A stretch of 64,000 nt of DNA from Rhodothermales bacterium (GCA_040221055.1 JAVJVN010000002.1:1-64000), one strand, 5' to 3'. Numbered from the stretch's first letter, positions 53,090 to 63,000 are shown. Program-made: numbers and translations. Notes: generated from the letters alone by a model not told the origin.

Positions 53090-53821
53090 TCAACCCGTCG
53101 CCAGACCGGAGGCCCGCATGGCGCGGATGAGCGTCGTGAACAGGCGCAATCCGATTTTGCCGGCATCCCGGGACCCGAACTCGACCACGATGTCGCCGGA
53201 GAACCCGCGGGCCTTCAAGTCCGACAGGAATCCGATCCAGGACTTCTGGACGGTGTCCTGGTCAAACTCGGGGACAGGTACGGCCGCGAGACGCAGGAGA
53301 CCGACGGTCGCTGGATCGCCGGTAACGGAGGGCTCGTGAAGCCCGGTCGTCACCGCGCGTGCAACCGGTTGTCCGGCGAGCTCTTTGAGCAGTGTGACGA
53401 CCCGTTCGTCGTCATCGTCGGCAACGAGCACGGATTGCCCGGCCGCTGCCGCCCGTTCACACAATCGAAGATAGGGCTCAACCGGCAACGCATCTGTTCC
53501 GGACAGGGGCCCGAGAAGCGTTGCTCGTACGCCCAGCCTCCGGTTGAAGGCCACCATATCGGCATATTGTGTCATGTCATTGAGCCATGCCGACCGGTCC
53601 TCCAACCCGCACGTCAGCCATCCCGGATCGCACACGGAAATGGACAGCTCACCGGCCGAGACGCGGTGTCTGATGGGGGCTTCGTTCACCCATGGAACGC
53701 GCTCAAGGTGTTTCCCGACCGTCCGGAGTTCCACACCGTCGGCACCCCAGAGGCCCGCGTAATGCACCATGCGGTCGAGGTCGGAAGTAATGGGTTCCGG
53801 CTGCCAGATCAACAAGCTCAT
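53090..53821 (-). CDS. TIM-barrel protein of the sugar-phosphate isomerase/epimerase type
   Basis: A 243-residue protein resembling xylose-isomerase-like TIM barrels. It has MVHYAGLWGADGVELRTVGKHLERVPW, SVCDPGWLTCG and GDIVVEFGSRDAGK near the end. Metal ligands of the family are partly recognisable (Glu in VEL, Asp, and the C-terminal Glu in VVEFG), but a full ligand set is not confirmed. It overlaps the M28-like lipoprotein gene by 4 bp. Confidence 0.6.
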   Translation of the reverse strand: MSLLIWQPEPITSDLDRMVHYAGLWGADGVELRTVGKHLERVPWVNEAPIRHRVSAGELSISVCDPGWLTCGLEDRSAWLNDMTQYADMVAFNRRLGVRATLLGPLSGTDALPVEPYLRLCERAAAAGQSVLVADDDDERVVTLLKELAGQPVARAVTTGLHEPSVTGDPATVGLLRLAAVPVPEFDQDTVQKSWIGFLSDLKARGFSGDIVVEFGSRDAGKIGLRLFTTLIRAMRASGLATG

Positions 53822-55761: not shown

Positions 55762-57117
55762 TCAGTTCATCTTGCCCTTCTGGACATCCGTGTTCAACTC
55801 GGCATTGAACTGTTCCAGGGCGCGACGGACGGCAGCCCGTTGCTGTTCCAGCATGTTGTCGGGCCGTGAACGTGCGTAGCGGCTGCGAACGGGATCCACG
55901 ATGCGGGCTTCAATGGCAATGACCAATTCCTTCTGGGTGACCTGCCGCTGGGACTTACCAAACACGTAGCGCAGACCGAAAAACCAACCCGGAAGGTCCT
56001 TGAGCAAGGGAATGCCACTCCGTGAGATCGTCTCATCGGTGGAAAACAATCCGCCGATCACCGTCTGCTCGCCGTCCAGCAACACCACCTGGGTATTTGC
56101 GCTGCTCCGATCAATGACCGGCCCGGCTGCGGAGGGTCGACTGCCCGATTTCTCAACCTGGATGGCCAGGTGCAGGAAATCGACGGTCGGTGAGCCCAAG
56201 GTATCGGCCAGGGCTTCCGTGATGAGCGTCGGGGTCACATTCACGATGATCCCGGTCTTGAACAGCTCTGTGACCGTATTGCCGGAAAAGTCTCTCGTTT
56301 GGACGGGCACGTCTGAACCTATCTGGATGTCGCCGGCCACGCCGCTCTGCACGGTCACCGATGGACTGGCCACGGTCTCACCGAATCCCTGGGCTTCGGC
56401 CAGGCGGAACAGCCGGTTCAAATCGGAGAATTTGATTTCACTCGGACTCGTAATGATGTCCTCGAAACTGGAAAACAGTTTCTCGGTCTTCAGGGAGAAA
56501 TTGACGCCACCGGCCGATGCATCGCCACTGGCAGATGCACCTCCTCCCCCACCGGCACCCGCTGAGGCACCACCGGACGTGCCTCCCGTGCTTCCGAAAA
56601 TCAGGCTCCAGTCCATGCCCGATTCGCGTGCCTTGGTATGGTTGACTTCGAACAGGACGGCATTGATTTCAATCTGGCGGGAGTCCAGGTTCGCAAGGGA
56701 CACGGACGTCGGAACCGCCCCCGCCGCACTGGCAACCGCACCCGAATCGCGGATTTGAGGCTGCACCGGGACCTCCTGGATCATGAAGTACCGTTCGGTC
56801 TCCCGGTATTGCAGGTTGTTGTATTTCAGGACGAGTTCCAGTGCATCCAGGAAATGCATGGTGGAGATCGAAATACCGATGGGCTGATTCCGCATTTCCA
56901 CGTCAATTACTTCCTTGCCTGTGACCCGGCGAAAAATCGGATTCACGAACTCGACGAACGTATTGAACGGTGTCGACGGAAGGAATGACACCAGCTGATC
57001 CTCGGGGACGTACGTGCGGATCATCCGCTCGGCAGCATCCTGAGCGGCCGCGCGACCCGGAATGAGCAACGCAAGCAGGATCAAGGCAAATGAAAGCAGG
57101 TTGGCGGGCGTACGCAT
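55762..57117 (-). CDS. Secretin-family outer-membrane channel (PilQ/GspD-like)
   Basis: A 451-residue outer-membrane multimeric channel. A signal peptide (ending GRAAAQ) is followed by one N1/STN-like domain (residues ~30-110, with VIDVEMRNQPIGISISTMHFLDALELVLK). A Gly/Ser/Ala-rich linker and the secretin domain (~165-430) follow. The signature is DGEQTVIGGLFSTDETISRSGIPLLKDLPG, then KELVIAIEARIVDP. It is shorter than usual secretins, with few periplasmic N domains. It is the last gene of the tight four-gene operon. Confidence 0.88.
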   Translation of the reverse strand: MRTPANLLSFALILLALLIPGRAAAQDAAERMIRTYVPEDQLVSFLPSTPFNTFVEFVNPIFRRVTGKEVIDVEMRNQPIGISISTMHFLDALELVLKYNNLQYRETERYFMIQEVPVQPQIRDSGAVASAAGAVPTSVSLANLDSRQIEINAVLFEVNHTKARESGMDWSLIFGSTGGTSGGASAGAGGGGGASASGDASAGGVNFSLKTEKLFSSFEDIITSPSEIKFSDLNRLFRLAEAQGFGETVASPSVTVQSGVAGDIQIGSDVPVQTRDFSGNTVTELFKTGIIVNVTPTLITEALADTLGSPTVDFLHLAIQVEKSGSRPSAAGPVIDRSSANTQVVLLDGEQTVIGGLFSTDETISRSGIPLLKDLPGWFFGLRYVFGKSQRQVTQKELVIAIEARIVDPVRSRYARSRPDNMLEQQRAAVRRALEQFNAELNTDVQKGKMN

Positions 57118-57123
57118 GATTCG

Positions 57124-58128
57124 TCAGTTTTTCTGTGTAGGTGCGATCTGGCTCGACCCGATCGCCTGGCGGAACCGCTCTCCGGTGTCCAGGACCAGGA
57201 CGACTTCGTCGATGATGCCACCCTTGTTCAGCCGGGCGGTCACTCGTTCATTCATGGGATCGACTGAAATGATCTGTCCTAAATAGACCGATTCACCTGC
57301 CCCCACCGACACGAAGGAATCCTGCCACTTGAAGACAGCCTCGCCGTTCGCGATGAACACCAGCTCAGCCGATTCCACGTCGACCAGATTGTGGGTATTC
57401 GGGGGGATGAGTTCCAGGATATGCGGGTAGAACGGGTTTCCGGCCGGCTCCCGTGCCGGCAGAACCGAAAGAGGCACCTGCGGCAGATCCTGCGTGGGGT
57501 CAATGCTCTGGGCCAGCACGGGGAGGGCGTCTCCCTGCTCCGCTTCATCGGTCGCACTGAGCCCTGCCACTCCGCCGAAGTAGGATATCAGCGTGAAATC
57601 AAAGCTGACCATGACATCCATGACCGGCCGTTGGGTACGCGGATCGACCGTGCGGATATCGATATGGTTCAGCTTCAGATTGTCAATCCGGTACAATTGA
57701 CGGGAATTTTCGATGGACCAGATCAGACTGTACAGATTCCTGAAATGTCCGCGTCCGGTGACATCGAAGGTGTAGGTGTTGTATTCCGCACCATTCGTCA
57801 TGCCCTTGAACATGATGTCGAAGGGCTTGAAGCCGGTCCGGGTGTGTTCATTCAGGAAAGAAATCACTTCCTCCGAGCCCAGCGTACGCGGTACGACCTT
57901 GTACCGGGCATTCCACCGGGTTACCACCTCATTGGCAATGTCCTCGGACGCCGACATGTCCGACATAAGGGAGGTCAGTTCCGTCTGCTTCATCCGGGCC
58001 ACTTTTTCAGCCTTCTCGAGGCGGTCCATTTCCGCGGGTTGCTGTACGAACGTGAGCCAAACGCCCCCGCCCGTGGCAATCAGCCAGCAGAACCCCAACA
58101 CCAACAAATTCTGAATCATGTTCGACAT
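57124..58128 (-). CDS. PilO-PilP-like inner-membrane fusion protein
   Basis: A 334-residue inner-membrane alignment protein. Residues 4-25 form a membrane helix, ~28-60 a coiled coil, and ~75-190 a PilO-like ferredoxin fold with GFKPFDIMFKG, YTFDVTGRGHFRNLYSLIWSIEN and MDVMVSFDFTLI. After a low-complexity linker, residues ~240-330 look like a PilP/GspC-type HR domain, with ELVFIANGEAVFKWQDSFVSVGAG and SVYLGQIISVDPMNERV. The ATG at 58128 is chosen because the longer frame overlaps the upstream gene. It lies 6 bp before the secretin gene. Confidence 0.7.
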   Translation of the reverse strand: MSNMIQNLLVLGFCWLIATGGGVWLTFVQQPAEMDRLEKAEKVARMKQTELTSLMSDMSASEDIANEVVTRWNARYKVVPRTLGSEEVISFLNEHTRTGFKPFDIMFKGMTNGAEYNTYTFDVTGRGHFRNLYSLIWSIENSRQLYRIDNLKLNHIDIRTVDPRTQRPVMDVMVSFDFTLISYFGGVAGLSATDEAEQGDALPVLAQSIDPTQDLPQVPLSVLPAREPAGNPFYPHILELIPPNTHNLVDVESAELVFIANGEAVFKWQDSFVSVGAGESVYLGQIISVDPMNERVTARLNKGGIIDEVVLVLDTGERFRQAIGSSQIAPTQKN

Positions 58129-58138
58129 GGTTCCGTCC

Positions 58139-59896
58139 TCAGATCTCTTTCTGGTTGTTCGCCTGCTCCCGCAAGTACAGGGCTGCTTCGGGCAGCTTGC
58201 GCTCCACTTCCAGCTGCATGACGAAAGTGTATACCGGGCGCTCCCTGATTTCCGAGAACGTAAGGCTTTCAATTTGACCATCGACCGATGCGGCAAGGGC
58301 GACAATCTGCTCGCGACTCGTCGCGTTGCCGGTCAGCTGCAATTTCCCGTCCGACTCCGACCATTGCTCCACCCAGACGCCGGAGACCGTAGACAATTCG
58401 ACAGACAGACGCTCCAGGGTCCGCGACCAGCGATCGCTGCCCACCAGCAGGGAATCCAACACGTCGAGGGCGCCGACAAATCCCTGTGAACGGGCCTGCA
58501 GGCTGTCGATCCGGTACTCCAGATCATCCAGATTCGCCGAGATGACATCCTCCGGATAGTTCTTCAGCTCATGCTGGAACCGGGCCATGTCCTGGCTCTG
58601 GTCAAAGTATCGGGCAACGAAGAAAAGGGTCGAGCCGAACAGCAGGACGAACATGGCCGCAATGGGCCACGAAATGGGCAACTCAAAGCCCTTCCCTGCG
58701 AATTTGTGATCCAGGAAGTCCACCGGATGGAAAACGCCTGCGAACGGGCCATGCTTGACCAGACGAAGGGTTCCCAGCACGCCCAGCAACGCCTCCCGTC
58801 GCAGGGGTTTGCCTTCTTGTTCGGAGGTCGCGGAGCGTCCGGGCAACAGGCTGCGCAACAACCGGATGTCAGCCGTTTCGAAGAACGTGGAAAAACTCTC
58901 ATGCAGCGGTTCTTCACGGTCATCGCTGAACAGGAAGATGGTCTCGGCATCACTCCGGCCGAGTTCGTCCTGCAGCAGCAGGACGCGACTGCAAATGGTT
59001 TCCGGCGGATCGAAGGCCGTGATGGACCGCAGGTTCTCGACGTGCAGAAGGGCGCCGCCGCTCACGAACATGACGAGCGTATCGTCCATGCCCACGCGCA
59101 CGAGCAATGAGAGGCCGTCGGCCGCCCTGGCATCCTTCGACGCCGATGCAGCCTTCATCAGACCGGCCAGAAGCGAGATCTCCGTTTCCACGAGGGACAC
59201 CGTGGGGAAACTCCGCTTCCGGTTCCGGATGGTTTTCAGGGAGGGCATGAAGGGTTCGAAGGCCTGCGCGAACACCGCTAGATTTGCCGAACCCCCATCC
59301 GGTGGGGACACCATGGGAATGAAGGCCGTCTGCGCTTCGGAGTACCGACCCGTCTGGGTCTTCTCCAGCAAGGCAAACAACTCATCGCGCGACGGCGCGT
59401 CTCCGGACTTCCTGTTCTTTTTCTTCTTCTTGACGCCTTCCACGCCATCCCGGGGTACATCCAGACGAACACTGTGGACGAACTCGGAGCCCAGCGTGAA
59501 TACCACCCGGGGATTCTCATAACCCGCCTCTGCGCACTCGGCCATGATTTCAAGCAATTCCAGGTCGATCGGAATGGCGCCTTGGGCGGCCGATCCCATA
59601 TCGCCGCCGCCGGCACCCGGCAAGCTGTCCGTTTCGAATTCTGAAGCCAGAAAGAGCGACGCATCGCCCTGCTCTCCTGCCGCAGCCGCGAAACTGTAGT
59701 CCGCTTCCGATGCGGGAGCATCCAACTCCATGTCCAGCGACGTGGCATTGCCCATGAAGTCGGCACTGGCCCGCTTGCGGGTGAAGGTCCGGATCAGGAC
59801 CGGCCCATCGGGTCCGTCCTGCACGAGTGCGCCTTCTACCCGGCCATTGGAGGCCGAAATTCCGAGGATGTATTCGCTTTTTGCGCCGTATCTCAT
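58139..59896 (-). CDS. PilM-PilN-like fusion protein
   Basis: A 585-residue protein. Residues ~8-400 resemble the actin-like PilM fold: the YILGISASNGRVEGALVQ phosphate loop, the FPTVSLVETEISLLAGLM segment and the LSLLVRVGMDDTLVMFVSGGALL second subdomain. A membrane helix follows (~410-430). The C-terminus (~435-585) is PilN-like, with a coiled coil, WVEQWSESDGKLQLTGNATSREQIVALA, and a final beta subdomain. PilM and PilN are usually separate proteins that bind through a short N-terminal tail of PilN; here they are one chain. It lies 4 bp after the ATPase stop. Confidence 0.72.
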   Translation of the reverse strand: MRYGAKSEYILGISASNGRVEGALVQDGPDGPVLIRTFTRKRASADFMGNATSLDMELDAPASEADYSFAAAAGEQGDASLFLASEFETDSLPGAGGGDMGSAAQGAIPIDLELLEIMAECAEAGYENPRVVFTLGSEFVHSVRLDVPRDGVEGVKKKKKNRKSGDAPSRDELFALLEKTQTGRYSEAQTAFIPMVSPPDGGSANLAVFAQAFEPFMPSLKTIRNRKRSFPTVSLVETEISLLAGLMKAASASKDARAADGLSLLVRVGMDDTLVMFVSGGALLHVENLRSITAFDPPETICSRVLLLQDELGRSDAETIFLFSDDREEPLHESFSTFFETADIRLLRSLLPGRSATSEQEGKPLRREALLGVLGTLRLVKHGPFAGVFHPVDFLDHKFAGKGFELPISWPIAAMFVLLFGSTLFFVARYFDQSQDMARFQHELKNYPEDVISANLDDLEYRIDSLQARSQGFVGALDVLDSLLVGSDRWSRTLERLSVELSTVSGVWVEQWSESDGKLQLTGNATSREQIVALAASVDGQIESLTFSEIRERPVYTFVMQLEVERKLPEAALYLREQANNQKEI

Positions 59897-59900
59897 TGTA

Positions 59901-61214
59901 TCACTTCGCCAATTGCATGAATCGCCGCTTGTTGTTCGCGTAGGACATGGCCGTCTCCGGCGTTATGAGTCCCTGACGCATCAAGCGGAAAAGATCCTGC
60001 TCCAGTGTAATCTGTCCCTGTCCCCAGCCTTCCCACATCATCTGGTATATTTCACCGGAATTGTCATTCTTGATGGCGGCCCGGGCCGAGGGTGTGACCC
60101 AAAGGACTTCCTTGGCCAGCACGCGACCACCGCCCCGCTTGGGAGCCAGCTTCTGGGAAATGATGCACCGCAGGGTATCGGCCAGGCGGTTACGCACGCG
60201 ATCCTGCTCGTTCGGCGGGTATTCTCCGACAATCCGGTCAATACTTTCGACCGCCGATGACGTGTGCAAGGTGGAAAAGACCTTGTGCCCTGAATCGGTG
60301 ATCTCGATGGCAGAGGAAATCGTTTCAGGATCGCGCATCTCGCCGATCACGACGATGTCCGGATCCTGACGGAGGGCCTGCACAATTCCGTCCTTGAAAG
60401 ACGGCACGTCCTGACCCACCTCACGATGCCGCACAATGCACTTCTTCGAGGCATGCATGTACTCGATGGGCTTTCCGACCACCACGATGTGGCCATGGAA
60501 GTCCGCGTTGTTCGCATCCACGATGGCATCGAGCGTCGAGCTCTTGCCGGACCCGGTCACCCCGGTCACGAGGGTCAACCCGTCGCGTTCATGGCTGAAC
60601 ATGAGCCCCCGCTCGATGGCGGGATGGAAGCCCAGGGAATTCAATGGAAACAGGGAGTCCTGGATGGAGCGCATGTTGAGGGCCAGATTGCCCATTTCCA
60701 TGTAGGCCGACGCCCGGAACCGACGTCGGCGCTCGCCCGGTTCGCCGGGAATTTCGTGGGAAAAGTCTGCGGCGCGCCAGGAGAACAGCGATTCCAGTGC
60801 CGTTGCACCCAACAGGTTAAGGATGACCAGGGCTGACTCGTCGGTCGACAACCGGGGAAGCCCTTCGCCGGGCTTCTTGTCGCCATCGGACCGGAACCAG
60901 ATGTGTCCGTTCGACGATTCGCCGCCCATGTCCATGTCCGATGCGCCAACCGTCGCCATCCGGGACACCAGGGAGTTGAAGAAGATGCGCAATTGGGCGC
61001 GGTCGTTCGAATCCACATGGCCCAACCGGTCCAGGAGGAATCGGATGCGCTCCTCCCCATAACTCATGGCCGGGATGGACCCGATGATCTGCGCTACGAA
61101 CCCGGGCAACCCGTCGTTGGCGGGCTCGGACAACGAAACCGTCGATCGCGACGGGGTCCTGAGTGGCCGCGCGGGCGGACGCGGGTTGGCGGGAATGGAT
61201 CCGGAGTGCTCCAT
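59901..61214 (-). CDS. Type II/IV secretion ATPase, PilT-like
   Basis: A 437-residue hexameric motor ATPase of the PilT/PilB/GspE family. Walker A is GVTGSGKSST near residues 214-224. An Asp-box region follows (VVGKPIEYMH), Walker B is VVIGEMRDPETI near 285, and the His box is FSTLHTSSA. The N-terminal half (1-200) is unlike standard PilT and has unusual Ser/Met/Gly content. A zinc tetra-cysteine, typical of GspE/PilB, is absent, so the motor looks PilT-like. The ATG at 61214 is preferred to a TTG at 61271. It begins the compact operon. Confidence 0.87.
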   Translation of the reverse strand: MEHSGSIPANPRPPARPLRTPSRSTVSLSEPANDGLPGFVAQIIGSIPAMSYGEERIRFLLDRLGHVDSNDRAQLRIFFNSLVSRMATVGASDMDMGGESSNGHIWFRSDGDKKPGEGLPRLSTDESALVILNLLGATALESLFSWRAADFSHEIPGEPGERRRRFRASAYMEMGNLALNMRSIQDSLFPLNSLGFHPAIERGLMFSHERDGLTLVTGVTGSGKSSTLDAIVDANNADFHGHIVVVGKPIEYMHASKKCIVRHREVGQDVPSFKDGIVQALRQDPDIVVIGEMRDPETISSAIEITDSGHKVFSTLHTSSAVESIDRIVGEYPPNEQDRVRNRLADTLRCIISQKLAPKRGGGRVLAKEVLWVTPSARAAIKNDNSGEIYQMMWEGWGQGQITLEQDLFRLMRQGLITPETAMSYANNKRRFMQLAK

Positions 61215-61305: not shown

Positions 61306-61347
61306 AAAAAATGGGGCGCTGGAGCAATTCCTGCTCCAGCGCCCCAT
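61306..61347 (-). terminator. Intrinsic terminator after the PilX-like gene
   Basis: A perfect 16-bp inverted repeat (61311-61326 and 61332-61347) with a 5-nt loop is followed on the minus strand by six T residues (61311-61306, the first pairing in the stem). It starts 28 bp after the stop of the 541-residue gene, separating it from the ATPase operon. Confidence 0.85.
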
Positions 61348-61374: not shown

Positions 61375-63000
61375 CTATTCGGCCTTTCTGGACGCGGACT
61401 GGGTCATGGATGTCATGCGGACAACCAGGGGCTGTTGCTGCAGTTCAGGAACGAGCGGCATGAGCCGTTGCAGCGCTTCGTAGCTCGTGCGGACTTCCAC
61501 GTCCCCGTTGATATGGAACGAAATGGGCATGACATTGACCTGTTCGCTGCCCGACGCACTGCACTCGGCTTCAAGGGCGTGCCGGTAAATGGCCAGGTCG
61601 TAGAGCAGGATGGGCGTCCCACCGATGTCCTCGTCATCGATGTCATATACCCGAACACGGAATACGCCTCCGCGGTCTGTTGAATCGGACCAAACCGAAC
61701 CCGGAACAGCTCCCCGGACATCGCAAGCGGAGTTGAACGTCATGGAAAGCGCCAGGAGATCGGCCACGGGCGTGTCAAAGGAAACGTCCGCATCCATTGG
61801 GCCTTCCTGAAGCGATCCTACGGACTGATAGAAGAAGGTGCCGTTCACGGCGTCCGTGTTCTCGATGGAAATCCGGATGTCGGTGACGTCCTGGTTGGTA
61901 ACGAGCTCATCCCAGCATAATCCGCCTCCGGTCTCGCATCCGGCGGCCAGGACATCCACACCATCCATGTCGTACCGGTCGTCGTATTGATGGTCATGGT
62001 ACCGGAGGGCGCCCGTTGACGAGAACACGCCGATGTCGAAATGGCCGCCCAGAAGGCCGGCATCGTCCTCGCCTCCGGTCTCACCGACGTCGGTGAGCGA
62101 GCGCAGCACCAGGGCCCCCCGGATATCGGCCGTTCCCTTGAACTGATGGTCGCCACCGTTGGCCCGGGCCATGACCAGTCCTTCCCAATAGACCGTTCCT
62201 GCGAGCGTCAGCGATCCATCCACAAGCAGGATTCCGTAACCGGACACGGATCCCCGGACGTCCAGGTCACCACTGACGACGACGATGGCCGGATTGTCGC
62301 GGGATCCGTACGTCACGTCTCCCGAAATCCGCTCCGGACCGGCAATGTCAATCTTGGATGCGTGCGCCCGGATGGCCGCATCCAGTGTATTCAGATCCAC
62401 GCCCAGCGGGCCGGAGACAATGTCTCCTTGGCCATTCATGCCGGTGGCTTGATCGCCGCTTATCCGGGCGGCGAACGGATCGTCTGCGGAGGACAATACC
62501 GTGCGGATGGCATGCGCATCCGGACCCGCTACGTGCGCATCCTCTTCCCCTTCAAACGTCGGCAACGGTGTGTCCAGACCGGAAATCAGGAACGAATTCC
62601 CACTGGCCTTCACGCCGGACACCGGTCCGTCAATGGTCAATGCATCCAGCACAGGCGATCCCGTGCGTTCAAGCGTCGCGAAGATCTCATGTACGGCATC
62701 CTGGCTCGTTCCTTCGGCCCGGATGACCACGGGACCCTCGCGGTCACCCACGGCTTCGTAGGCGTACGTCGCGCCGGCATACGGCTTGTCGGACACGGCA
62801 CTCCGATAATTCGCAAAATCGCGGGCTGTTCTGGCAACGGCCAGATTCAGTGCCGTGTGGGCCGTCTCCCGCGCCAATACGGACGCCTGATAGTCCGTCT
62901 GCGTTTCAATACGGTCAATTTCTCCTTCCTTCTCCACCGCATACATGCTTGTCAAGGTGATGAGCATGGATGCGACCAGGATGATAGCGCCTTTCCCCAT
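61375..63000 (-). CDS. PilX-like pilus-assembly-type protein
   Basis: A 541-residue exported protein. It begins MGKGAIILVASMLITLTSMYAVE, a very short leader plus hydrophobic helix like PilX-type minor pilins, and lacks the conserved Glu5. Residues ~25-110 have the Ala/Thr-rich helical part (SVLARETAHTALNLAVARTARDFANY). The rest has repeating beta motifs, GDLDVRGSVSGYGILLVDGSLTLAGTVYWEG, as in minor-pilin-like surface proteins. A ribosome site GGAGGA (63009-63014) precedes the ATG by 8 nt. It is separated from the secretion operon by a terminator. Confidence 0.7.
   Translation of the reverse strand: MGKGAIILVASMLITLTSMYAVEKEGEIDRIETQTDYQASVLARETAHTALNLAVARTARDFANYRSAVSDKPYAGATYAYEAVGDREGPVVIRAEGTSQDAVHEIFATLERTGSPVLDALTIDGPVSGVKASGNSFLISGLDTPLPTFEGEEDAHVAGPDAHAIRTVLSSADDPFAARISGDQATGMNGQGDIVSGPLGVDLNTLDAAIRAHASKIDIAGPERISGDVTYGSRDNPAIVVVSGDLDVRGSVSGYGILLVDGSLTLAGTVYWEGLVMARANGGDHQFKGTADIRGALVLRSLTDVGETGGEDDAGLLGGHFDIGVFSSTGALRYHDHQYDDRYDMDGVDVLAAGCETGGGLCWDELVTNQDVTDIRISIENTDAVNGTFFYQSVGSLQEGPMDADVSFDTPVADLLALSMTFNSACDVRGAVPGSVWSDSTDRGGVFRVRVYDIDDEDIGGTPILLYDLAIYRHALEAECSASGSEQVNVMPISFHINGDVEVRTSYEALQRLMPLVPELQQQPLVVRMTSMTQSASRKAE

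Follow-up and report, generated by a model that had tools for sequence, protein, structure and literature searches.

We describe a cluster of four genes, related to those of type IV pili, in a Rhodothermales bacterium. The cluster lies in a stretch of 64,000 nucleotides (GCA_040221055.1, JAVJVN010000002.1:1-64000), hereafter the window, and encodes a PilT-type ATPase, a PilM-PilN chain, a PilO-PilP chain and a secretin (Table 1). The original prediction, made from the window, had proposed four closely spaced genes in this order, and coordinates, order and gaps all hold, with 4, 10 and 6 bp between the open reading frames (ORFs) at the T/MN, MN/OP and OP/Q boundaries, all on the minus strand.

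Table 1. Genes and other features of the type IV pilus-like system in the window and on other contigs of the same genome (aa, amino acids)
Feature	Position	Strand	Basis
PilT-type retraction ATPase, distinct clade, 437 aa, ATG start	window 61214-59901	minus	Pfam, NCBIfam, PDB profile, tree
PilM-PilN fusion, 585 aa	window 59896-58139	minus	profile comparison with relatives
PilO-PilP fusion (PilP half putative), 334 aa	window 58128-57124	minus	profile comparison, AlphaFold, Foldseek
PilQ-type secretin, short N-terminal part, 451 aa	window 57117-55762	minus	Pfam, NCBIfam
Large minor-pilin-like protein, 541 aa, starts MGKGAIILVASM, leaderless	window 61375-63000	minus	position and N-terminus
Intrinsic-terminator-like hairpin and T run, GGGGCGCTGGAGCAGGAATTGCTCCAGCGCCCCATTTTTT, between 541-aa gene and pilT	window 61306-61345	minus	read from sequence
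Two small pilin-like proteins starting MGQQQLLLLVLG, then PilC and PilB, almost gapless	C18:7039-1976	minus	
Trio of leaderless minor-pilin-like genes (129, 191 and 523 aa), very start of contig	C20:2753-130 (L197)	minus	
Second PilB-like ATPase, 613 aa, standing alone, separate 222-aa ORF before it	C12 8769-11294 (L009)	plus	

The Motor ATPase and the Secretin

Judged by sequence, the window ATPase is PilT, in agreement with the original call of a PilT-like protein. It matches the Pfam family T2SSE (4.5e-34), and the profile of its family matches solved PilT at 6.6e-95 versus about 1e-24 for PilB/GspE (PDB). The NCBIfam model TIGR01420 scores E 2.6e-90 and 303 bits, under its cut-off of 319. 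A 77-row tree divides PilB from PilT; the ATPase family groups as a single clade (100/100) with the latter, and the family's own PilB forms a separate clade (98/96) with the former. The secretin, the only one found in the genome, matches the Pfam family Secretin (3.3e-27), with PilQ (TIGR02515) as the best NCBIfam model (2.1e-25).

Fused Alignment Subunits

Both alignment proteins are fusions. Searched singly against Pfam and NCBIfam, the two chains give little signal (in Pfam, PilN at 0.016 for the PilM-PilN chain and T2SSM_b at 0.044 for the PilO-PilP chain, both sub-threshold), and profiles built from relatives were needed. With relatives aligned, the C-terminal half of the PilM-PilN chain matches M. 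xanthus PilN at 2.8e-11 and pairs with PilN in hhalign (probability 96, E 3.7e-9); the Pfam PilN domain is found in 15/24 relatives of the chain. Its N-terminal half aligns with canonical PilM (hhalign probability 95, E 3.5e-8), as against at most 0.2 for controls from seven other families of the machine. The chain is predicted to consist of an actin-like PilM half in the cytoplasm, one transmembrane helix near residue 410-430 and a PilN half in the periplasm.

The PilO-PilP chain matches PilO in a PDB profile search (7e-6), and its N-terminal half does so in hhalign (probability 98.4, E 6e-15). An AlphaFold model from ten sequences starts with a long transmembrane helix/coiled coil. The ferredoxin-like domain of PilO follows and ends at about residue 185; residues 187-239 are a disordered linker, and those from about 250 to 312 form a PilP-like beta domain with a confidence score (pLDDT) of about 86 (76-88 in blocks 241-300). 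Foldseek relates the first part of the model to PilO (3jc8, E 4.8e-5; 5uvr, TM score 0.70) and the C-terminal part to Pseudomonas aeruginosa PilP 2y4y (probability 1.00, 2.2 A over 70 columns, TM score 0.66 of the target, E only 0.07). A two-sequence hhalign profile of the PilP half gave no match (probability 0.8), and it is the modeled fold that points to PilP.

The original prediction had set both fusions against standard pili, in which PilM, PilN, PilO, PilP and PilQ are separate proteins. The fused chains are as proposed, but a PilM-PilN fusion by itself is not new, being the state of GspL/PulL in type II secretion (PMC10191384) and also found in pilus loci of Bacillota. In three such Bacillota loci (L152, L124 and L120), PilM is matched by a single chain of about 530-550 aa, whose gene in L152 is immediately followed by a PilO-like one; these loci differ from the present cluster in that at least one of them (L152) carries ordinary prepilin and peptidase genes.

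The Remaining Genes and the Operon in Relatives

The rest of the machine is encoded elsewhere in the genome (G000; 3.3 Mb, 99.5% complete). As had been noted, the window has no PilC, prepilin peptidase or pilin. A peptidase was not found elsewhere in the genome either (below), but PilC and the pilin-like genes are missing from the window only through a split of the operon in this organism: contig C18 carries PilC, PilB and two pilin-like genes, and C20 the minor-pilin-like ones. This rules out the reduced machine that had been suggested, and equally a decayed one. The 541-aa gene of the window is an extra member of the trio's third type, besides the C20 trio. It had also been considered that a complete, unrelated system might exist elsewhere; instead, the genome has one secretin, in the window, and one PilC, on C18 (scoring slightly better with GspF in NCBIfam), and the window cluster and the C18 genes therefore belong together. 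The breaks of contigs C2, C18 and C20 all coincide with, or lie close to, runs of a G/C homopolymer (L008 9690-9735, L010 1-110 and L197 50-100), so the distance between the machine's halves is not fixed by the assembly.

In relatives from the same class, which is probably Rhodothermia to judge by the closest named loci, these genes form one operon, with one or more proteins starting MGQQQ, PilC, PilB, in many cases the trio, and then PilT-PilMN-PilOP-PilQ; other genes may stand in the trio's place between PilB and PilT. The PilO-PilP protein occurs in 137/196 genomes of the class. Individual loci named here are a sample of the matches listed, which generic PilT genes dominated, and do not amount to a census. 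Among these matches, the set was seen in a Rhodothermales metagenome-assembled genome (MAG; partial), in Balneolaceae including Fodinibius halophilus (L104) and in Ignavibacteriaceae, and one Cloacimonadota MAG combines PilB and a leaderless trio with PilT-PilMN-PilOP-PilQ. This arrangement far exceeds what chance would give, because the order recurs across the class relatives examined, Ignavibacteriaceae and, in part, Cloacimonadota. That the window cluster is a relic unrelated to the C18 genes is hardly credible: the split operon could be read in this way, but all reading frames are intact, secretin and PilC are divided between the two contigs, and relatives keep all genes together.

Pilin-Like Proteins Without a Leader

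The pilin-like proteins of this system begin MGQQQLLL, with a membrane helix from the start. They have no class III leader and no F1, and usually no E5, and no N_methyl prepilin motif exceeds its cut-off in the window genome. Searches with the whole protein (phmmer) gave 27 of 29 proteins starting MGQQQ; the other two (MANKE and MGNRE) are leaderless as well. Their start codon is not in doubt: at 78 of the 82 motif sites (which comprise 76 full-length proteins) the frame is closed upstream by a stop codon, a median of 5 codons away, with no alternative start between. A longer leader hidden by a wrongly chosen start codon is ruled out by these stops. Shine-Dalgarno-like sequences are present at 43/82 sites.

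The minor-pilin-like proteins that we checked are leaderless too, and only L106:1805 has no nearby upstream stop. N-termini within the trio vary (MQQ.., MAQ.., MWF.., MSY..). Relatives of the 541-aa protein start MGKA.LL.. and are third in the trio, just before PilT; in the window its gene has an in-frame stop 7 codons upstream and GGAGG before the ATG. The protein has no Pfam match and is probably a minor pilin, to judge by its position and N-terminus.

We infer from position, helix and linkage that the MGQQQ proteins are pilins. Canonical mature pilins pair with their profile across 56 columns (hhalign probability 79, E 1.6e-5; controls at most 2), and AlphaFold predicts a helix over residues 3-54 (~52 residues) followed by a low-confidence beta head. 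One alternative is that they are membrane-anchored accessory proteins of a secretion machine or envelope-tethered motor that makes no pilus. Neither AlphaFold nor the fold search yielded a pilin fold, and the heads are short and very variable, as this alternative would have it. However, their place upstream of PilC is conserved, often with more than one copy; the long N-terminal helix and the likeness to canonical pilins go against it, as does the glycan ligase that adjoins them in relatives (below); and a genome that has PilB, PilC and PilT offers no other pilin candidate. We consider an accessory role quite unlikely.

Prepilin Peptidase Is Not Detected in Most Genomes With the System

A prepilin peptidase of the Peptidase_A24 family (A24; PF01478) was not found in the window genome, where the best match has E 0.39; control genomes were positive in 12/14 cases. 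Borrowing of a peptidase from another system in the same genome is ruled out, as none was found there. Across 196 genomes of the class, the MGQQQ motif is present in 131, A24 in 15 and both in 13, and 118/131 motif-bearing genomes thus have the motif without A24. A phylum sample, enriched for the window's class, has the motif in 134/392 genomes, with 0 matches for a reversed-pattern control, and A24 was not detected in 119 of these 134 (motif/A24 overlaps were tallied by hand from two lists). Motif-bearing genomes without A24 include some that are single-contig or nearly so (G003, G004, G010 and G030).

Where A24 does occur, it tracks ordinary prepilins and not the MGQQQ system, because in the genomes inspected it sits beside leader-bearing prepilins in second loci. 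In 6/6 A24-positive genomes inspected, the peptidase is in a separate second locus of this kind, with prepilins such as GFSLTELLIVLAIIGILIMIAVPLYQN. These prepilins are of the GFSLTELLIV type, and the loci (L189-L194) resemble those of type II secretion systems (T2SSs) or type IV pili; several have a 480-510 aa protein at the place expected for GspL/PilM-N.

One possibility is that the machine is the same and its pilins are still processed, by an unrelated or diverged peptidase that has replaced PilD and cuts after Gly2 (MG|QQQ), where the N-terminal Gln may cyclize. A Gly ahead of a hydrophobic stretch looks like G(-1) of the canonical cleavage site, and pilin-like proteins of both Rhodothermia and Ignavibacteriaceae have Gly2. 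However, no positively charged leader is left to place the cleavage site, the proposed minor pilins share no Gly2, and the conserved operon has no peptidase gene. Such processing is, in our judgment, unlikely.

Proposed Assembly of a Leaderless Filament

Considering what is directly observed (the gene set, the fusions, the linkage in one operon in relatives, the leaderless starts and the lack of a detectable A24 peptidase here and in most relatives), we find it quite probable that the four window genes supply one half of a PilT-driven, retractable type IVa pilus-like machine, namely its motor, alignment complex and outer-membrane pore, and that this machine can do without a prepilin peptidase. 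In known pili, PilB extends the filament, PilT retracts it, and the secretin is connected to the base through PilMNOP. Methionine aminopeptidase is known to take off an initiator Met that is followed by Gly. The MGQQQ proteins would be the filament subunits, inserted straight into the inner membrane and losing at most the initiator Met, to methionine aminopeptidase. PilB on the PilC platform would polymerize them without leader cleavage by PilD, the trio of leaderless minor pilins would start the filament, PilM-N and PilO-P would connect the base to the secretin, and PilT would retract the filament. The machine may serve in surface attachment and motility/twitching, and possibly in DNA uptake.

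It is likely, if somewhat less so, that the system represents a separate and widespread class of type IV filament, with leaderless major and minor subunits and peptidase-free polymerization, and that leader cleavage is not universal for assembly. To about the same degree we expect this class to cover the window's class, Ignavibacteriaceae and, in part, Cloacimonadota.

Several points weigh against this proposal. The filament is postulated from genes alone, and a very diverged or unrelated peptidase may escape a sequence search. That the first eight residues are invariant in the motif scans is in part a product of the search pattern. The match to the canonical-pilin profile runs only through the hydrophobic helix, falling to probability 1 once the helix is removed. 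Finally, the model of the MGQQQ protein has a pLDDT of 50 overall and no PDB fold match, and its pilin fold is thus only putative.

Relation to Known Systems

The system would work like a type IVa pilus, yet fails two of its defining features, the class III leader and the prepilin peptidase. It shares with type IVa pili PilB, PilT, PilC, the functions of PilM, PilN, PilO and PilP, the PilQ secretin and a minor-pilin-like trio, and it differs in the PilM-N and PilO-P fusions, in having no detectable prepilin peptidase and in pilin-like proteins without a class III leader. We file it as a variant within the type IV filament superfamily.

A type II secretion variant, in which the PilM-PilN chain would be GspL-like, PilO would correspond to GspM and PilP to GspC, is very unlikely. 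GspL/PulL is itself a PilM-PilN fusion (PMC10191384), the GspF/GspE homologues are shared, PilC scores slightly better with GspF, and some genomes hold a separate T2SS-like locus. However, a PilT retraction ATPase heads the conserved T-MN-OP-Q block, PilO and PilP are in one chain, the secretin scores best as PilQ, and neither leader-bearing pseudopilins nor GspO were found in this system. We know of no T2SS with PilT, and the presence of PilT sets the machine apart from type II secretion systems (GspC-O).

The Bacteroidetes 'T2SS' of Cytophaga clusters with type IVa pili (Denise et al. 2019, PMC6668835) and, likened by description and not by sequence, shares the phylum and the general composition class with the present system. 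Its counterpart may be the leader-bearing second loci (L189-L194). In Melioribacter roseus, pilT, pilQ, pilB and pilC were reported with no pilA or pilD, and the authors inferred an incomplete set (PMC3534657). A motor, platform and secretin without pilA/pilD fits what we expect of the present system, and by analogy we propose that the 'missing' pilA may be a leaderless MGQQQ protein.

Reviews take as the hallmark of type IV filaments that their prepilins bear a class III signal peptide which a prepilin peptidase cuts off, and it is for such prepilins that automated surveys search (PMC10191384, PMC6668835, PMC4471445). We found no report of leaderless type IV pilins in the literature searched, which lacked most subscription journals and bioRxiv. 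If our reading is true, surveys requiring class III pilins would miss a leaderless, peptidase-free system, and parts of the Bacteroidota group might for this reason seem poor in type IV pili or seem to have incomplete sets. It has long been assumed that a pilin can be drawn out of the membrane only once its leader has been removed; this now becomes testable, and Fodinibius halophilus, whose locus carries the set, is a culturable member for such work.

Other Genes in and Around the Operon

Relatives show further variation. An O-antigen-ligase-like gene sometimes lies between the MGQQQ gene and PilC, and the copy in L076 matches Wzy_C at 1.3e-18; genes of ~500 aa stand between the pilin-like gene and PilC at L076:3935-5449, L081:944-2464 and L104:4162-5655. 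A Wzy_C-type ligase beside a pilin-like gene suggests pilin glycosylation, with the ligase as a candidate glycosyltransferase. In five loci of Balneolaceae type (L078, L085, L094, L103 and L104), a ~168-aa protein between PilB and PilT looks by eye like a cyclic-nucleotide-binding protein, as does a similar one in Ignavibacteriaceae (L105:2740-3213); its place inside the operon suggests regulation by a nucleotide signal. Two trios occur within one operon in L077 and L090. The single-contig genome G030 carries two copies of the system (L079 and L080), and in the second the PilM-PilN match extends over two ORFs. In none of the four matches to the motif among viral contigs did MGQQQ stand in an ORF of at least 60 aa.

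On the upstream side of the window cluster, a subtilase (S8) gene separates the pilus genes from the contig end (63228-64000 and beyond; L008 8228-9613), and its product has a short tandem repeat, YKVLDR, near the N-terminus. Near the downstream end of the secretin gene is a sugar-isomerase-like gene (53090-53821, minus strand). The gene directly downstream of the L081 secretin (L081:15830-16702) resembles it by eye, and synteny may thus reach beyond the cluster.

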